From a bacterium (GTDB taxonomy: Bacteria; Planctomycetota; Planctomycetia; Planctomycetales; Planctomycetaceae), in contig WGME01000004.1 of NCBI GenBank assembly GCA_016125225.1, forward strand, positions 186,001 to 250,000: DNA of 64,000 nt, written 5' to 3'. The position numbers and the translations under genes were made by a program. The notes under the pieces were generated by a model that was not told the origin of the DNA, searched no databases, and saw only the letters and a program-made list of their open reading frames with translations. Position 1 is the first letter of the stretch. The number at the start of each line of letters is the position of its first letter. Shown here one piece after another: positions 9,005 through 15,694 of the stretch.

Positions 9005-9504
9005 GTCGGCCCCGTTCCGTCATTCAGAAAATCTGAACATTATGTCGGCATTCCCGGTGATCAGGTCGCAATCACGGCGTCGTGCTTCTTTTGGGATGCG
9101 TCGTTAGTGTTTTCATAGTAATGGGTTATAGCGTGACATTGGTGCCGACGTGCGGCATTCAGCCGGTGATCGGATGATAAGGATTGTGTCAGCATTAAGG
9201 ACTCTTCAAAAAAACTCAAAATTTCTAACCGCTGATTTCGCCCCAAGTTGTGGGGTCTTTTGTCAACGCAAACCCTAGTCGTTGTGTTTCGGCGTCTTGA
9301 CAATCTTGAAGCGCAGATTAAAGTGCTGCGAATGGCCACGCACAACAAATTGGGGGTCGACACGTAGAATCTACCAGCTCTTGTGTCATTTTCCTTTCTT
9401 TTCCCCCAGTATGAGCAACATTAGTTCACCAGAAAATTGTGTGCGCGCCGATGTTGCTGCCGGGTGTCGGCAGTTCAGTCCCCGAGTCCAATGATGGAGT
9501 GTGC
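9005..9504. other. intergenic region between divergent DUF486 and nrdJ genes
   Basis: There is no credible gene here. It holds a candidate nrdJ promoter (9297-9324) and a short CCCCA/TGGGG hairpin followed by TCTTTT (9241-9261), which could be a weak terminator. I looked for a cobalamin riboswitch, because the product needs B12, and for a clear NrdR box pair, and found neither. The frame of nrdJ is open from 9439, but the start at 9505 is better supported. Confidence 0.5.
9297..9324 (+). promoter_or_regulatory. candidate sigma70-type promoter of nrdJ
   Basis: A perfect TTGACA at 9297-9302 is followed after 16 nt by TAAAGT (four of six consensus bases). This would give a leader of about 175 nt before nrdJ. 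Confidence 0.35.
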
Positions 9505-12500
9505 ATGATGCACGAGACCAATGGAGTGTCCGCAGCGGGATCAGTTTCGGTGACTTCGAATGGTCACGGAAATGGTCATGCCGCGCCAACAATTCCCTCA
9601 CCTGCTTCTAATGGAAAAGCCTCTTCTGTGCGTACCCTGCCCGAGCGACAACCTCTGCATATTGAACCGACTTTCTGCCCCACGAACGCGGCAGACCCGT
9701 TCGACACCGTTCAATGGGATCTGCGCACCGCCGCGATCAAAGATGAGAACGGCAAAGTCCTGTTCGAGCAGACCGACTGCGAAATCCCGGCCCCATGGAG
9801 CCCGCTGGCGACCAATGTCGTCGTCAGCAAGTATTTCTACGGTGAACACGGCACCGCCGAGCGCGAACACAGCGTCCGCCAGGTGATTCACCGCGTCGCC
9901 CGCACCATCGCCGACTGGGGCACCGAAGATGGCTACTTCGCCAGCCGCGAAGATGGCGAAATCTTCTACCGCGAACTCGCTTGGCTGTGCCTGCACCAGT
10001 ACGGATCGTTCAATTCCCCGGTGTGGTTTAATGTCGGCCTGTATCATCAGTATGGCGTGACCGGTTCTCGTGGTAACTACTACTGGGATCGTACCACCGA
10101 GCAGGTTGATCGTCCGACGACACCCTATGAATACCCGCAAGCCTCGGCCTGCTTCATTCAGTCGGTCGATGACAACATGGAAGACATCATGCGTCTCGCC
10201 ACCAGCGAGGCCATGCTCTTCAAGTTCGGCTCCGGCACCGGGACCGACCTGTCGACCATTCGCGGTTCGAAGGAAAAACTCTCCGGCGGCGGTACACCGT
10301 CTGGCCCGCTGTCGTTCATGCGGGTTTACGACCAGATCGCGGCCGTCGTGAAGTCTGGTGGCAAGACCCGCCGGGCTGCCAAGATGCAGTCGCTGAAAGA
10401 CTGGCATCCCGACATTCTCGAATTCGTGCAGTGCAAGCTGAAGGAAGAGAAGAAGGCCCGCGTGCTGATCGAGTCGGGCGAGTACGATTCTAATTTCAAC
10501 GGTGAAGCCTACAGCTCAATCATGTTCCAGAACGCGAACCTTTCGGTCCGCGTCAGCGATGAGTTCATGCGAGCCGTCGAAACCAACGGCAAGTGGAAGA
10601 CCCGCTGGGTCACCGACGCCAACCGCGAAGGTCCCACTTACGATGCCCGCTACGTCATGCGGCAGATGGCTGAAGGGGCCTGGTACTGCGGCGATCCCGG
10701 CGTGCAGTACGATACCACGATTAACCGTTGGCACTGCTGCCCGAACAGCGGCCGCATCAACGCGTCGAACCCCTGCTCGGAATACATGTTCCTCGATGAC
10801 ACCGCTTGTAACCTCTCCAGCTTGAACCTGCGGAAGTTCCAGAAGGCCGATGGCACGTTCGATGTTGATCGTTACCGCAAGGCGGCTTCGATCTTCATCA
10901 CGGCCCAGGAAATTCTGGTCGATCACGCGAGCTATCCCACGCCGGATATCGCCGCGAACAGCCATAAATACCGTCCGCTCGGCCTCGGGTTCGCGAATCT
11001 CGGCAGCCTGTTGATGTCGATGGGTATTCCCTACGACAGCGACGCCGGCCGTGGCATCGCGGGTTCACTCACCGCGCTCCTCACCGGACAGGCTTACCTC
11101 ACCAGCAGCCGCATCGCCAGCTTCATCGGTCCGTTCGCGGGCTATGAAGAGAACGCGGCACCCATGCTGCGGGTGATGCGCATGCACCGCGATGCCTGCG
11201 ACCGCATCGATTACTCCTGCCCGGAATATCTCCGCAAGGCAGCGGAAAAGGTCTGGGACGAGTGCGTCGATTCCGGCCGGGCCTACGGCTATCGCAATGC
11301 CCAGGCCACCGTGCTCGCACCAACCGGGACCATCGCCTTCATGATGGACTGCGATACCACGGGCATCGAACCCGATATCGCCCTGGTGAAGTACAAGCAA
11401 CTTGCTGGTGGCGGGATGCTGAAGATCGTGAACCGCACGGTTCCGCTGGCCCTGCAGAAGCTGGGTTACGAACAGGCGGCGATCGAACGGATCGTCCAGC
11501 ACATCGAAGCGAAGGACACCATCGAAGGTGCCGCCGACATTAAGGCCGAACACCTTCCCATCTTCGATTGTGCCTTCAAGGCCGCGAACGGCACCCGTTC
11601 GATTGCCTGGCGGGCCCACATCACCATGATGGCGGCGGCTCAACCGTTCCTCTCGGGAGCCATCTCGAAGACGGTCAACATGCCGGCCGAATCGACGGTC
11701 GAAGACATCGAAAAAGCTTACATCGAAGGGTGGAAGCTGGGCCTCAAAGCCCTTGCCATCTACCGCGACGGTTCCAAGCAGAGCCAGCCCCTCAATACCA
11801 AGAAGGATGGCGACAGGAAGAAGGGAGGTCAGGTCAGCGGCCCGCAACGCCGCCGGCTCCCGGCCACCCGCCAGTCGGTCACCCACAAATTCTCAGTGGG
11901 CGGCCATGAAGGTTACATCACGGTCGGCATGTTCGAAGACGGTTTGCCCGGCGAACTCTTCATCAGCATGGCGAAGGAAGGCAGCACCATCGGCGGGCTG
12001 ATGGACGTCATCGGCACCGAAACGTCGATGTGTCTGCAATATGGTGTCCCGTTGCAGGTGCTGGTCGACAAGTTCTCTCACATGCGGTTTGAACCGGCCG
12101 GTTGGACGGGCAACCCGGATGTGCCGAACGCCAAAAGCGTGGTCGATTACATCTTCCGCTGGATGGCGATGCAGTTCATTTCCGGTTACCGCGAGGCCAA
12201 CGCTCCCAAACGGATTGTGGACTCGGCCGGTGAAGAGGGAGAGGACGACGGCGCGGAAGCGCATCGTCCGGCTGTGGTTGCCCCCAAGGGTGAGCCAACA
12301 ACCCCAGCCGCCGCCGACCGGCTCCCCACGATGATCAAGCATCGGATGCAGACCAGCTTGAAGGTGGCGACGCCTTCAAATGGTCACGGCAGCCTGGAAG
12401 AACAAAGCAATCAACGGAGTGCCCAGTTCGCCAAGTTCCAATCCGACGCCCCCAGCTGCGACAACTGCGGAGCGATCACCGTCCGCAACGGCAACTGCTA

Positions 12501-12540
12501 CCTCTGCCACAACTGCGGCAACAGCCTCGGATGTAGTTGA
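9505..12540 (+). CDS. nrdJ: adenosylcobalamin-dependent (class II) ribonucleoside-diphosphate reductase
   Basis: Makes deoxyribonucleotides with a B12-derived radical, independent of oxygen. Class II signatures are present: YPQASACFIQSVDDNMEDIM, FGSGTGTDLSTIRGSKEKLSG, the radical-cysteine motif NPCSEYMFLDDTACNLSSLN, and APTGTIAFMMDCDTTGIEPD. A TSCPD-type C-terminal domain (GLPGELFISMAKEGSTIGG) follows, then a low-complexity linker and a four-cysteine terminal segment, CDNCGAITVRNGNCYLCHNC, likely a zinc ribbon and/or redox-active tail. ATG-ATG at 9505/9508 is preceded by GGAG at 9496-9499, giving 1011 residues. Codon use is strongly biased to C/G in third position. The gene is monocistronic and ends at a strong terminator. 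No intein or frameshift is seen. Confidence 0.96.
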   Translation: MMHETNGVSAAGSVSVTSNGHGNGHAAPTIPSPASNGKASSVRTLPERQPLHIEPTFCPTNAADPFDTVQWDLRTAAIKDENGKVLFEQTDCEIPAPWSPLATNVVVSKYFYGEHGTAEREHSVRQVIHRVARTIADWGTEDGYFASREDGEIFYRELAWLCLHQYGSFNSPVWFNVGLYHQYGVTGSRGNYYWDRTTEQVDRPTTPYEYPQASACFIQSVDDNMEDIMRLATSEAMLFKFGSGTGTDLSTIRGSKEKLSGGGTPSGPLSFMRVYDQIAAVVKSGGKTRRAAKMQSLKDWHPDILEFVQCKLKEEKKARVLIESGEYDSNFNGEAYSSIMFQNANLSVRVSDEFMRAVETNGKWKTRWVTDANREGPTYDARYVMRQMAEGAWYCGDPGVQYDTTINRWHCCPNSGRINASNPCSEYMFLDDTACNLSSLNLRKFQKADGTFDVDRYRKAASIFITAQEILVDHASYPTPDIAANSHKYRPLGLGFANLGSLLMSMGIPYDSDAGRGIAGSLTALLTGQAYLTSSRIASFIGPFAGYEENAAPMLRVMRMHRDACDRIDYSCPEYLRKAAEKVWDECVDSGRAYGYRNAQATVLAPTGTIAFMMDCDTTGIEPDIALVKYKQLAGGGMLKIVNRTVPLALQKLGYEQAAIERIVQHIEAKDTIEGAADIKAEHLPIFDCAFKAANGTRSIAWRAHITMMAAAQPFLSGAISKTVNMPAESTVEDIEKAYIEGWKLGLKALAIYRDGSKQSQPLNTKKDGDRKKGGQVSGPQRRRLPATRQSVTHKFSVGGHEGYITVGMFEDGLPGELFISMAKEGSTIGGLMDVIGTETSMCLQYGVPLQVLVDKFSHMRFEPAGWTGNPDVPNAKSVVDYIFRWMAMQFISGYREANAPKRIVDSAGEEGEDDGAEAHRPAVVAPKGEPTTPAAADRLPTMIKHRMQTSLKVATPSNGHGSLEEQSNQRSAQFAKFQSDAPSCDNCGAITVRNGNCYLCHNCGNSLGCS

Positions 12541-12547
12541 GACAAGA

Positions 12548-12618
12548 GTCGAGAGCGGAGAGACCAGAGCCAGGCATTGATTTTTCTGGCTCTGGACTCT
12601 GGACCCTCGCCTCTCGAC
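12548..12618. repeat. large imperfect inverted repeat downstream of nrdJ
   Basis: Outer arms GTCGAGAG (12548-12555) and CTCTCGAC (12611-12618) enclose a perfect 10-bp inner stem, CCAGAGCCAG (12564-12573) with CTGGCTCTGG (12586-12595), around a 12-nt loop. No T-run follows on the plus strand, so it is probably an RNA-stabilising hairpin or a REP-type element rather than the terminator itself. Confidence 0.7.
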
Positions 12619-12675
12619 AAAACAAAAAACAGCCGACGACATTGCTGATGGATTGGCGTGCCGCTTGGCGTCAGG

Positions 12676-12710
12676 ACCCCTCGGTCAACGGAATTGACCG
12701 AGGGGTTTCT
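12676..12710 (+). terminator. intrinsic terminator of nrdJ
   Basis: A perfect 13-bp stem (12676-12688 with 12694-12706), a 5-nt loop CGGAA, and TTTCT after it. This is one of the two clearest rho-independent terminators in the window. Confidence 0.85.
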
Positions 12711-12794
12711 GCGTTTGTAGGGTGTCAGAGGGTGATGATCAGTCACTCGTAAGGACCGCGGCAGGGTGGCACTGTCAAAAGCATACCATGCTTC

Positions 12795-12823
12795 TTGTGT
12801 GCCACTGGCTTTGCCAGTGCCGA
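12795..12823. repeat. REP-like palindrome, left copy flanking the transposase
   Basis: A 29-nt element containing the hairpin GCCACTGGC-TTT-GCCAGTGCC. It is the inverted copy, with one mismatch, of the element at 13455-13483 on the other side of the IS200-like gene. Confidence 0.85.
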
Positions 12824-12829
12824 TCGGCG

Positions 12830-13408
12830 TCAATCGAACACTCCGGGGGGAGGGCCGTGAATGAAGGGTAATTCTGGGAACTGCTGGCGGGGCGGTTCAC
12901 ACAGATAGTACCGGGCGGATGACCACGGCCAATCGGTCGCTTGAGTACACAAACCTCGATGGACAGGATTCTGATGGATGTAGTCGATGGCGGCCGTGAT
13001 GGCTGGGGGACTGAAGAAATTCCGATCAAAACCACCCCCTTCCTGCCAGAAACGGAAACAGGTTTTACCGGGACGTTCTTGAACGGTCAGATTTGCGATC
13101 AACGGAGAGTTTCGGTCGATCAGAATCTGTTTGATGACTTTCGAAAAGGGCTGCTTGATCCGGGCCAGATAACGACCGAACTGTGGCTCGGCCGATCGGG
13201 GATTCGTCAGCACGTGGAGGTGTTCGGGCATGAACACGAAAGCCACCAGATCAAACTGCTCAAGTCGCCCGGCCTCTTCAATCGTTCGAGAGAGCTGTTC
13301 CTGCCAAGTGTCGTTGGTGAGCAAGGCCCTTCGTTGATAGCACGAGAAGGTGAACTCGTGCAGATGTCCCGGCTCGTGGTAGTACTTGACCTGCTTCCGA
13401 TGAGGCAT
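12830..13408 (-). CDS. REP-associated tyrosine transposase (IS200-like Y1 family)
   Basis: This 192-residue protein has the Y1 transposase fold signatures: HEFTFSCYQRRALL at the N-terminus, the HUH-type metal site in FMPEHLHVL, and YIHQNPVHRGLC followed by WPWSSARYY at the C-terminus. It is a single-strand endonuclease family that acts on REP hairpins. The start at MPHRKQVKYYHEPGHLHEF fits the family; the frame continues upstream only through the flanking repeat. No frameshift is visible, so it is probably active or recently so. It sits exactly between two inverted REP-like hairpins, the layout expected of a REP/RAYT unit, and separates nrdJ from the PPC gene. Confidence 0.92.
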   Translation of the reverse strand: MPHRKQVKYYHEPGHLHEFTFSCYQRRALLTNDTWQEQLSRTIEEAGRLEQFDLVAFVFMPEHLHVLTNPRSAEPQFGRYLARIKQPFSKVIKQILIDRNSPLIANLTVQERPGKTCFRFWQEGGGFDRNFFSPPAITAAIDYIHQNPVHRGLCTQATDWPWSSARYYLCEPPRQQFPELPFIHGPPPGVFD

Positions 13409-13454
13409 CGGTTGTTCTCCCCGTGGAGGGGAAGCATACCGGCTTGATTGTTTC

Positions 13455-13483
13455 TCGGCACTGGCAGAGCCAGTGGCACACAA
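13455..13483. repeat. REP-like palindrome, right copy flanking the transposase
   Basis: A 29-nt element, GGCACTGGC-AGA-GCCAGTGGC plus flanks. Its reverse complement equals the left copy at 12795-12823 except for one loop base (TCT versus TTT). Confidence 0.85.
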
Positions 13484-13526
13484 TCAGTCCTGCTCAGTTG
13501 CTGACAGTAGCTCCTGCCGTTCGAAC

Positions 13527-15632
13527 CTACTTCGCGGCCTCCACCGACACGAACACCGGCGGGCTGCTGTAGGTGGCTTTCATCACGAAGTTGATCGCAA
13601 AGTTGGCCATCACCGAGCAGACCTGCTTCTCGACCGGCGGGGCGGTCTTGTCGGCCTTTAGGACAATCAACCCTTCGCTCGCACCATTCGAAAGCAGCGT
13701 CTTACTTTTGCTGCCATCGATCGTGACCCCTTCCGGCAGCGTGTTTGCAAAGACCGAGTTCAAATGCTGGAACAGGCAATCGAGGGTGATGTTCGCTTTC
13801 ACATCAGGAGCCCGTTCGAGTTTCACCTGAATCGCCTGCGATTCGCCCGGCTTGAGTCGCACTTCTGTCGTACTGAGCGTGATGCTGCGAATGTCTGACG
13901 GTTCACCCACGCAGACCACATGATCATCGGACATGTAATGGCCCCGTCCTCCACCTGGCATGTAAATCTCCTGCCAGGGGCTGGCTTGTGCGACAAGTTC
14001 CAGCGGCGGTTGTCCTTCGCCCTGAGGATGGGCCGCTGTTCCGCGAATGGTGATGCGGGCCATTTCGAGCGGCGCGTCAGGAGCGGCCGATAAGATGATG
14101 GCACCATCAACCGGCTTGCCGGGGAGAATCCGTCCGCAGGTTGCCGTGACACCCGCCGGGAGACCATCGACCGCGAGTTCAATCTCGCCGGTGAAGCCGT
14201 GCTTACGGATCGCACGGACGAAGATCACACCATGCGTGCCGGGGGTGAGATTGGTTTTGTCGGTATCGACCTGTAGCTCGAAATACGGCTTTGTGGGCGT
14301 GATGGCGAGGGCATAACCGAATCCGTCGCCGCCACGCAGATGGACATCACGAATTTCAACGAAGTACTTGCCATCGGCCGGAGCCGTCCAGCCTTCGATC
14401 CAACTATCGGCATAGGTGAGCTTGCCAGAACGGGAATCGTCTTCCTCTTTCAGCAGTTGCCCCTTTTCGTTGAGGATGCGTACGAGGCTGTCGAGTTGCG
14501 AATCATACCGCCGGGCCAGCACCTCGAAGGAAAGCTGATCCCCTTTCTTTGCTTCGAAGGTGTAGACGTCAACATCGCTGGTCTTTTCCATGCGGCCGTT
14601 GATGACGACCGGCGTGGTGATGGCGACGGCCTGTTCGGCGGTGTCGTTCTCGGTGGCGGGTTCCGCGAACACCGGTTGATCGGTGACATAAACTGGCACC
14701 GGGTTGGACGGACCATCGGCTAGGGGCAAAGTCAACCAGCGCTGGCCGAGTGACCCCGCCGCTGCGAGCAACTGGCCTGATTTCGTATCACCCAGATTCC
14801 AGCCGGTGAGTTGCACGTCGGTCGCCTGATCGGGGTTCACGGCGAGCGGCGTGACTTGGGCGATTACCGGCCGGGCATGAGCTTCGATGGCGTATTCCCA
14901 GTAGACATTCCCCTGATAACGGACATCGCGAATTTCGAGCGTATATTCCCCCGATTGAGCGAATGTATGAGCGAGGAACGGGTCGGCATAAAAGAAATTG
15001 TCCGACATGGCGACCACGCTGCCTGAGGCATCCCGCAGAAAGAGAATCGGGTCGATGTGGTTTTGCAGGTCGTGGATTTTGTCTTCGAGACGTTGGCCGC
15101 GCACTAGGAAGGTGAACGATTGCCCGGCTTCAACATGGAACTTCCAGAAGTCGGTGTCTTCGCTCTTTTCGATGACGCCACACATTGTGGCGGGGAGCGT
15201 GACTTCCTGGGCTTTGTCAGGTGTGTTGTTGTCGCCGGTGGGTTCCATCGTGACGGGATCGCGAACGACCACGAGTTGACCGATCGTGCTGGCACCATTC
15301 GGCGTCGCGAGGCGGAACTCACGCGGGCCGGGTAAGGCATCGGTCGCCACGGTGATTTTCAGTTTCAGTTTGGTAAGGTCCTTGGGCTTCTCCCCCGGTT
15401 TGAGTTCCGGCATTTCAGGAGCGATCACTTCGGCTGTCACCCCTTCGCCAGAGACAAAGACCTGATGCGTCCCCAGCATGGTGTACCGCGATTGGACTTC
15501 GCATTCGGCCGTGGTCCCTGCCTGCACCGCGACGGGTTTGAGACCCATGACCATAGGATATGAAGTCTGTGCGCTGGCGATGGTGCACGTGGTTAGCAGC
15601 AAACAGGCAAGTGTGATCTTGTGAGTGACCAT
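13527..15632 (-). CDS. exported PPC-domain protein
   Basis: A 701-residue secreted protein. The signal peptide (MVTHKITLACLLLTTCTIAS, cleaved near AQT) gives the start at 15632, with GAGGA about 8 nt upstream; the frame is open further up only through a dispersed palindrome. At least two pre-peptidase C-terminal (PPC) beta-domains are visible, each ending in YTLEIRDVRYQG or YFVEIRDVHLRG type motifs, after DTDFWKFHVEAGQSFTF and DVDVYTFEAKKGDQLSFEV. No catalytic domain is seen. Proteins of this kind accompany DUF1549/DUF1553 proteins in planctomycetes, as here, 62 nt downstream of one. The role in the cell envelope or in polymer degradation is unknown. Confidence 0.88.
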   Translation of the reverse strand: MVTHKITLACLLLTTCTIASAQTSYPMVMGLKPVAVQAGTTAECEVQSRYTMLGTHQVFVSGEGVTAEVIAPEMPELKPGEKPKDLTKLKLKITVATDALPGPREFRLATPNGASTIGQLVVVRDPVTMEPTGDNNTPDKAQEVTLPATMCGVIEKSEDTDFWKFHVEAGQSFTFLVRGQRLEDKIHDLQNHIDPILFLRDASGSVVAMSDNFFYADPFLAHTFAQSGEYTLEIRDVRYQGNVYWEYAIEAHARPVIAQVTPLAVNPDQATDVQLTGWNLGDTKSGQLLAAAGSLGQRWLTLPLADGPSNPVPVYVTDQPVFAEPATENDTAEQAVAITTPVVINGRMEKTSDVDVYTFEAKKGDQLSFEVLARRYDSQLDSLVRILNEKGQLLKEEDDSRSGKLTYADSWIEGWTAPADGKYFVEIRDVHLRGGDGFGYALAITPTKPYFELQVDTDKTNLTPGTHGVIFVRAIRKHGFTGEIELAVDGLPAGVTATCGRILPGKPVDGAIILSAAPDAPLEMARITIRGTAAHPQGEGQPPLELVAQASPWQEIYMPGGGRGHYMSDDHVVCVGEPSDIRSITLSTTEVRLKPGESQAIQVKLERAPDVKANITLDCLFQHLNSVFANTLPEGVTIDGSKSKTLLSNGASEGLIVLKADKTAPPVEKQVCSVMANFAINFVMKATYSSPPVFVSVEAAK

Positions 15633-15658
15633 GGGTCGATCCTCATGTGTTGCAGACA

Positions 15659-15680
15659 CCCAGGGATCGCGATCCCTGGG
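15659..15680. repeat. 22-bp perfect palindrome, copy 1 of 3
   Basis: CCCAGGGATCG joined to its own reverse complement, in the gap between the DUF1549 gene and the PPC gene. It shares a 30-nt block (one mismatch) with the copy at 25945-25966, in inverted orientation. Confidence 0.85.
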
Positions 15681-15694
15681 CTTCAAGAGTCAAT

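Follow-up and report, generated by a model that had tools for sequence, protein, structure and literature searches.

The described systems closest to the locus reported here are the REPtrons of E. coli, Stenotrophomonas and Marinomonas (TnpA-REP groups 2 and 3), in which a single-tyrosine HUH transposase, the RAYT (REP-associated tyrosine transposase), is encoded between its own inverted REPs, each hairpin bears a tag at its foot, and REP pairs are dispersed in the genome. According to the accessible part of PMC8266576, the TnpA-REP enzymes that have been studied cut single-stranded DNA beside the REP, with the tag as the likely guide. Canonical REPs bear GT[AG]G, and non-canonical tags are known in other TnpA-REP subclasses (accessible text of PMC6006769). 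RAYTs are described as single-copy and vertically inherited in the available part of PMC8049555. A further group, the TIRtrons, contains RAYT-like (TIRYT) genes flanked by inverted repeats (TIRs) other than GTAG REPs; some TIRs are partly self-complementary and some form repeat families, and for R. baltica an abundance of tyrosine transposase genes and flanking repeats is noted (PMC3733652, in its available text).

The locus analysed here lies in a 64-kb stretch of planctomycete DNA (hereafter, the window) and shares with the REPtrons the single-tyrosine HUH RAYT between its own inverted REPs, the tag at the hairpin foot and the dispersed pairs. As in the Stenotrophomonas REP, to judge from the accessible part of PMC8266576, a short perfect stem carries a 3-nt loop. 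The tag, however, is GTGC or GTGG instead of the GTAG of those REPtrons, and the unit is duplicated within the genome, unlike the single-copy RAYTs described in the available text of PMC8049555. The locus is also like the TIRtrons of PMC3733652 (as presented in its accessible part) in that a RAYT-like gene lies between inverted repeats other than GTAG REPs. Compared by description, the TIRtrons differ in that some TIRs have a common GGGGWSAS motif, and the TIR of some species may be identical to the window-type REP. By the motifs tabulated in the accessible part of PMC6006769 (WQ and YIH[QN]NP), the protein can be likened to TnpA-REP subclass 2.6 (Bertels group 5), whose genes likewise lie between atypical hairpins that recur elsewhere in the genome; this subclass differs in its HUH motif (NH[LIV]H, versus EHLH here) and is mostly found in Bacteroidetes. 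IS200/IS605 elements (IS608 and ISDra2) have a common fold with the RAYT and hairpins near their ends, whereas the present locus has identical inverted REPs at both ends, together with dispersed inverted REP pairs (REPINs). The locus is a RAYT/REP unit of known type, in which the tag, the duplicated block and the retention of part of the transposase gene in some REP pairs are unusual. We consider it very probable that it is a planctomycete REPtron whose RAYT acts on its own REP and whose block is also copied; some REPINs look like deletion derivatives of it.

The RAYT gene and its flanking REPs

The RAYT gene (12830..13408, minus strand) is flanked by a class II ribonucleotide reductase gene (9439-12540, plus strand) on one side and a PPC-domain gene (13527-15686, minus strand) on the other. 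It encodes 192 amino acids, most likely from the ATG at 13408 (MPHRKQ...) to the stop at 12830; with the alternative TTG start at 13483 of the ORF listing, the reading frame would cross the right REP. A perfect inverted repeat of 13 bp around a 5-nt loop (12676-12706) lies downstream of the ribonucleotide reductase gene and is perhaps its terminator; it was not listed by the terminator scan.

The protein scored 86.7 bits against the NCBIfam model NF047646 (REP-associated tyrosine transposase; cut-off, 80). Its match to Pfam Y1_Tnp is barely above the cut-off, and this domain was matched by all 27 proteins in our alignment. In a phmmer search, it matched the E. coli RAYT (TnpA-REP, 4er8) with an E-value of 3.4e-8. 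An AlphaFold model built from 27 sequences (mean pLDDT, 91.5) had the same structure, 4er8, as its best match in the PDB (E 9.6e-10; TM 0.76 by target), and the IS608 and ISDra2 transposases were weaker fold matches. H63 is invariant in the alignment and H65 and Y143 are nearly so; because all three are kept in the window protein, with its HLH motif intact, the enzyme looks intact. By family model, sequence and structure matches and catalytic motifs, the gene is a RAYT, and what the preliminary description called an IS200-like transposase is one of this kind.

The left REP (12795..12823, plus strand; core 12803-12819) has the GTGC tag at the foot of a 7-bp stem with a 3-nt loop, and the right REP (13455..13483, minus strand; core 13459-13475) is its inverted copy. 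The two 29-nt arms are 97% complementary, the sole mismatch lying in the loop. Folded alone, each arm gives the 7-bp stem and 3-nt loop at -6.9 kcal/mol, a stability reached by 0 and 6 of 200 shuffles for the two arms, respectively. The right REP lies 46 nt upstream of the start at 13408 and the left REP 6 nt past the stop. With up to three mismatches, the core pattern has four matches in the window (two sites on both strands), versus 0.15 expected, and none of 100 shuffles reached four; no copy was found in the window beyond the two flanking sites. The inverted pair, the folding of each arm and the spacing are thus as the preliminary description had given them, and its reading as a RAYT gene with its own REP pair is borne out by the agreement of family, motifs, structure and inverted flanking REPs.

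The REP tag

The window REPs carry GTGC rather than the canonical GT[AG]G. Among 83 REPs at 38 loci, the bases at the stem foot are G (100%), T (95%) and G (98%), followed by C (87%) or G (13%), rounding included, and 73 of the 83 REPs are oriented head outward; the tag percentages are somewhat inflated, because the search patterns were chosen by the analyst and the choice of orientation favours such heads. Most of the planctomycete REPs found here therefore depart from the canonical tag at its last base, and since other TnpA-REP subclasses have non-canonical tags, GTGC does not exclude a RAYT. By analogy with the TnpA-REP enzymes, which cut beside the REP, probably guided by the tag, the window RAYT would act on GTGC REPs. 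A literature search that covered the text of papers open without subscription yielded no account of planctomycete REPs with a GTGC tag, and none of the papers listed contained the two 17-nt hairpin sequences. A C often directly follows the REP stem; that it is a cleavage mark is speculation.

Dispersed REPs and the interiors of REPINs

In the genome that contains the window (G000), the 21-nt REP pattern has 28 exact matches, and the reversed control has none. Contigs C5 and C37 have an exact terminal overlap of 141 nt, which falls inside a REP element. One of the 28 REPs is thus a duplicate count, leaving 27 distinct ones, and the two contigs probably adjoin, the assembly having broken at the repeat. 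With up to three mismatches, the pattern has 76 matches versus 45 for the control, and only low-mismatch counts are therefore informative. Further copies of the hairpin, on whose presence in the genome the preliminary description depended, thus exist. All 11 neighbouring pairs of exact REPs less than 150 nt apart are in +/- order with heads outward, and the 13 pairs inspected in G000 span 62 to 132 bp.

Of six G000 REPIN interiors set against the two ends of the RAYT block, two (C12:106893 and C5:142471) matched the left end for 37 to 43 nt, beginning at the first base inside the REP, and none of 1000 shuffles matched as well. The matched stretch includes the stop codon of the RAYT gene and roughly the last 8 to 10 codons. 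To judge from their sequence, these two REP pairs with a RAYT 3' end look like internally deleted copies of the REP-RAYT-REP block; because they are closely related to each other, they may represent one event. The other four interiors did not match the RAYT block, and none of the six matched its right end. The earlier proposal that the unit had seeded non-autonomous copies is partly supported by the two pairs carrying the gene end, but REPs also occur where no adjacent RAYT was found, and no precise empty site was identified (see below).

Duplicated RAYT blocks and the outer motif

A second RAYT is present in G000 (G000:C36:78050-78517). The two blocks (86% identity in 733 aligned columns) remain similar as far as 2 nt beyond the right REP and, on the other side, approximately 40 nt beyond the left REP, where an outer motif, GGCAGGGTGGCACTG (12760..12774, plus strand), is located. 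The left REP of the second unit is degenerate. The two RAYTs are sisters on the protein tree (100/96), so that G000 has two sister copies where a domesticated RAYT would be single. Aeoliella straminimaris also contains two RAYT blocks, which are 82.8% identical over 693 nt, from one REP to approximately 12 nt past the other, and the same two loci have a separate common stretch of 136 nt at 79%. In Bin_14 (L135/L145), a block of 79% identity ends at the right REP and begins approximately 100 nt inside the left REP, and other repeats are common to both loci. These blocks may have been copied by recombination. A third, more distant RAYT-like ORF of G000 (G000:C19:34550-34867, L031) scored 27.9 bits, below the cut-off.

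The outer motif has five exact copies in G000, all beside REP elements, and lies about 12-28 nt outside several REPs. Allowing two mismatches, it was found within 75 nt outside REPs in 7 of 24 G000 flanks, versus 1 of 24 further out; the corresponding numbers in the relatives G001 and G002 were 2 and 0 of 32. A possible, weak and degenerate right-hand counterpart (13500..13519, minus strand) was seen by eye only. The motif may belong to the element or represent a second, truncated REP; GTGGCAC within it and GTGCCAC in the REP are complementary.

These observations bear on an alternative that we regard as unlikely, namely that the unit is an insertion sequence of the IS200/IS605 type that moves whole, with the hairpins as its ends, and that the scattered hairpins are old IS remnants instead of REPs copied in trans. 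The whole blocks duplicated within genomes (G000 and Aeoliella straminimaris), the two REPINs resembling internally deleted blocks and the outer motif beyond the REPs would all suit such an element, although the duplicated blocks were seen without an empty site. Against it, the protein fits the RAYT equivalog model and is structurally closer to a RAYT than to IS608 or ISDra2, and both ends consist of one REP in inverted orientation. Moreover, the relative G026 contains 273 REP copies and, within the spacing searched, 64 REPINs, which among those listed have related interiors of their own, so that pairs appear to be copied as pairs.

RAYT phylogeny and hairpin type

RAYT homologues were collected from 58 named loci and genome searches (>100 bits), which gave 64 loci after de-duplication, 60 of them with usable flanks. 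At 38 of the 60, a hairpin finder working without a preset sequence detected a shared hairpin on both sides (score of at least 15). The tree set consisted of 42 loci, namely these 38 and L029, L137, L141 and L145, whose pairs were seen separately; loci without a two-sided pair had been dropped beforehand. When five REP classes were assigned by hand, the RAYT protein tree required seven class changes (minimum, four), versus a mean of 23.2 after shuffling, and none of 200 shuffles was as low. A single branch, with modest support of its own (72/28), has all 14 loci of the window's REP type on one side. Classes C and D and the mixed class E require four, three and three changes, respectively, and therefore not every class forms a single group; the clustering of class E was equalled in 49 of 500 shuffles. 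Among these 42 loci, which were selected because a REP pair flanks the gene, the hairpin type follows RAYT phylogeny.

At L097, L220, L217, L223, L218 and other loci of related genomes, RAYT-like genes have flanking inverted repeats of their own (GTAGGG..., GGGTGGCCC..., GGGTGGCAC...). Several RAYT/REP systems thus coexist in these planctomycetes.

Distribution of REPs and RAYTs among relatives

The exact REP pattern was found in 38 of 119 genomes, G000 included, and the control had no match in any of the 119. A second hairpin of the same kind (CACTGCTGG stem) was found in 20 of the 119, with no control matches. G001, which belongs to the same genus as G000, has 242 REPs. Distances between paired REPs of G001 and G002 (40 and 10 pairs, respectively, among those listed) form clusters around 44, 53 and 63 nt, roughly a helical turn apart, and the spacers inspected look largely unrelated. 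Helical phasing was suspected; however, because G026 has one dominant spacing and related interiors, descent of a few length classes is as likely.

We inspected 27 genomes closely (26 chosen relatives and G000), of which 17 have at least nine exact REPs and 10 have none. A window-type RAYT with a window-type REP on both sides is present in 4 of the 17 (G000, G026, G059 and G038), and one with such a REP on one side in three others: in G046 the locus is cut by a contig end, in G016 the gene is in fragments, and in G025 the REP pair lies about 240-290 nt upstream. No window-type RAYT beside a window-type REP was found in the other 10 REP-bearing genomes, nor in any of the 10 REP-free ones. Of the 31 RAYT family matches in G001, G031, G072 and G004, 29 were inspected, and none of these has a window-type REP within 320 nt. 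G067, a single contig with 50 REP copies, has one window-type RAYT match, beside which lies another hairpin type. Since ten REP-bearing genomes showed no RAYT beside this REP, window-type REPs can occur without a detectable cognate RAYT, and the idea that the number of REPs simply reports whether a RAYT is present was rejected.

The preliminary description had proposed that close relatives be compared for the presence or absence of the locus. Among 10 genomes in which the PPC-domain gene was sought, six strong full-length matches were found, none with a RAYT beside it (one lone REP core lies near L184); G001 has only weak matches. In G002 (L181, the one match of these whose surroundings were read), the gene on the other side of the PPC-domain gene is not nrdJ, and the site is therefore not a clean empty one. 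No precise empty site was identified among the 10 genomes, and a proof of insertion by this route was accordingly set aside.

The ten REP-bearing genomes without a window-type RAYT beside this REP fit a further alternative, in which a different RAYT, or at present no transposase at all, spreads or maintains the REPs, the window RAYT being a bystander or relic. G000, with two RAYT units but few REPs, and G001, with its many REPs and no such RAYT found, point the same way. We nevertheless consider this improbable, because the REP class tracks RAYT phylogeny, two REPINs carry the 3' end of the window RAYT, and none of the 10 REP-free genomes inspected has a window-type RAYT with this REP. That the hairpins are regulatory or terminator elements or host-protein binding sites unrelated to the RAYT is hardly credible: in a crude ORF scan 3 of 14 G000 elements lie fully inside an ORF of at least 200 aa and the rest do not, as this would allow, but homologous RAYTs have an inverted pair around them at 38 of the 60 loci with usable flanks, REP type changes together with the RAYT, no T-run was seen after the hairpin, and neither of the two terminator-like matches in 12500-13800 is a REP.

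Model and implications

In the REPtron model that we favour, the single-tyrosine HUH RAYT would recognise its own REP, that is, the GTGC tag and the 7-bp hairpin, in single-stranded DNA, and would cut and rejoin DNA next to it, so that REPINs are copied to new places. The REP-RAYT-REP block itself has also been copied within a genome in this planctomycete lineage, and some REPINs look like internally deleted copies of it. We infer that the window RAYT is capable of cutting and strand transfer and may be mobile at present, and that it, rather than a relative, would have made the REP copies. Counted against this model are the REP-bearing genomes with no adjacent RAYT, the absence of a clean empty site, the departure of the tag from GT[AG]G, the four unmatched REPIN interiors, the right end that was never matched and the degenerate left REP of the second unit.

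More tentatively, and with somewhat more doubt than confidence, we suggest that the planctomycete RAYT is not fully domesticated: the block may still copy itself, REPINs may arise from it by internal deletion, and the GTGC guide may direct cutting at a dinucleotide other than the usual CT (GC or GA by the guide-pairing rule, as given in the accessible part of PMC8266576).

REP and RAYT types change together across planctomycete loci. The tag, which differs from the GTAG of the systems covered in the available text of PMC8266576, provides a natural variant for testing the guide-sequence model. With regard to the origin of REPs and REPINs, the step from a transposase unit to a non-autonomous pair may be readable in the sequence of one genome.
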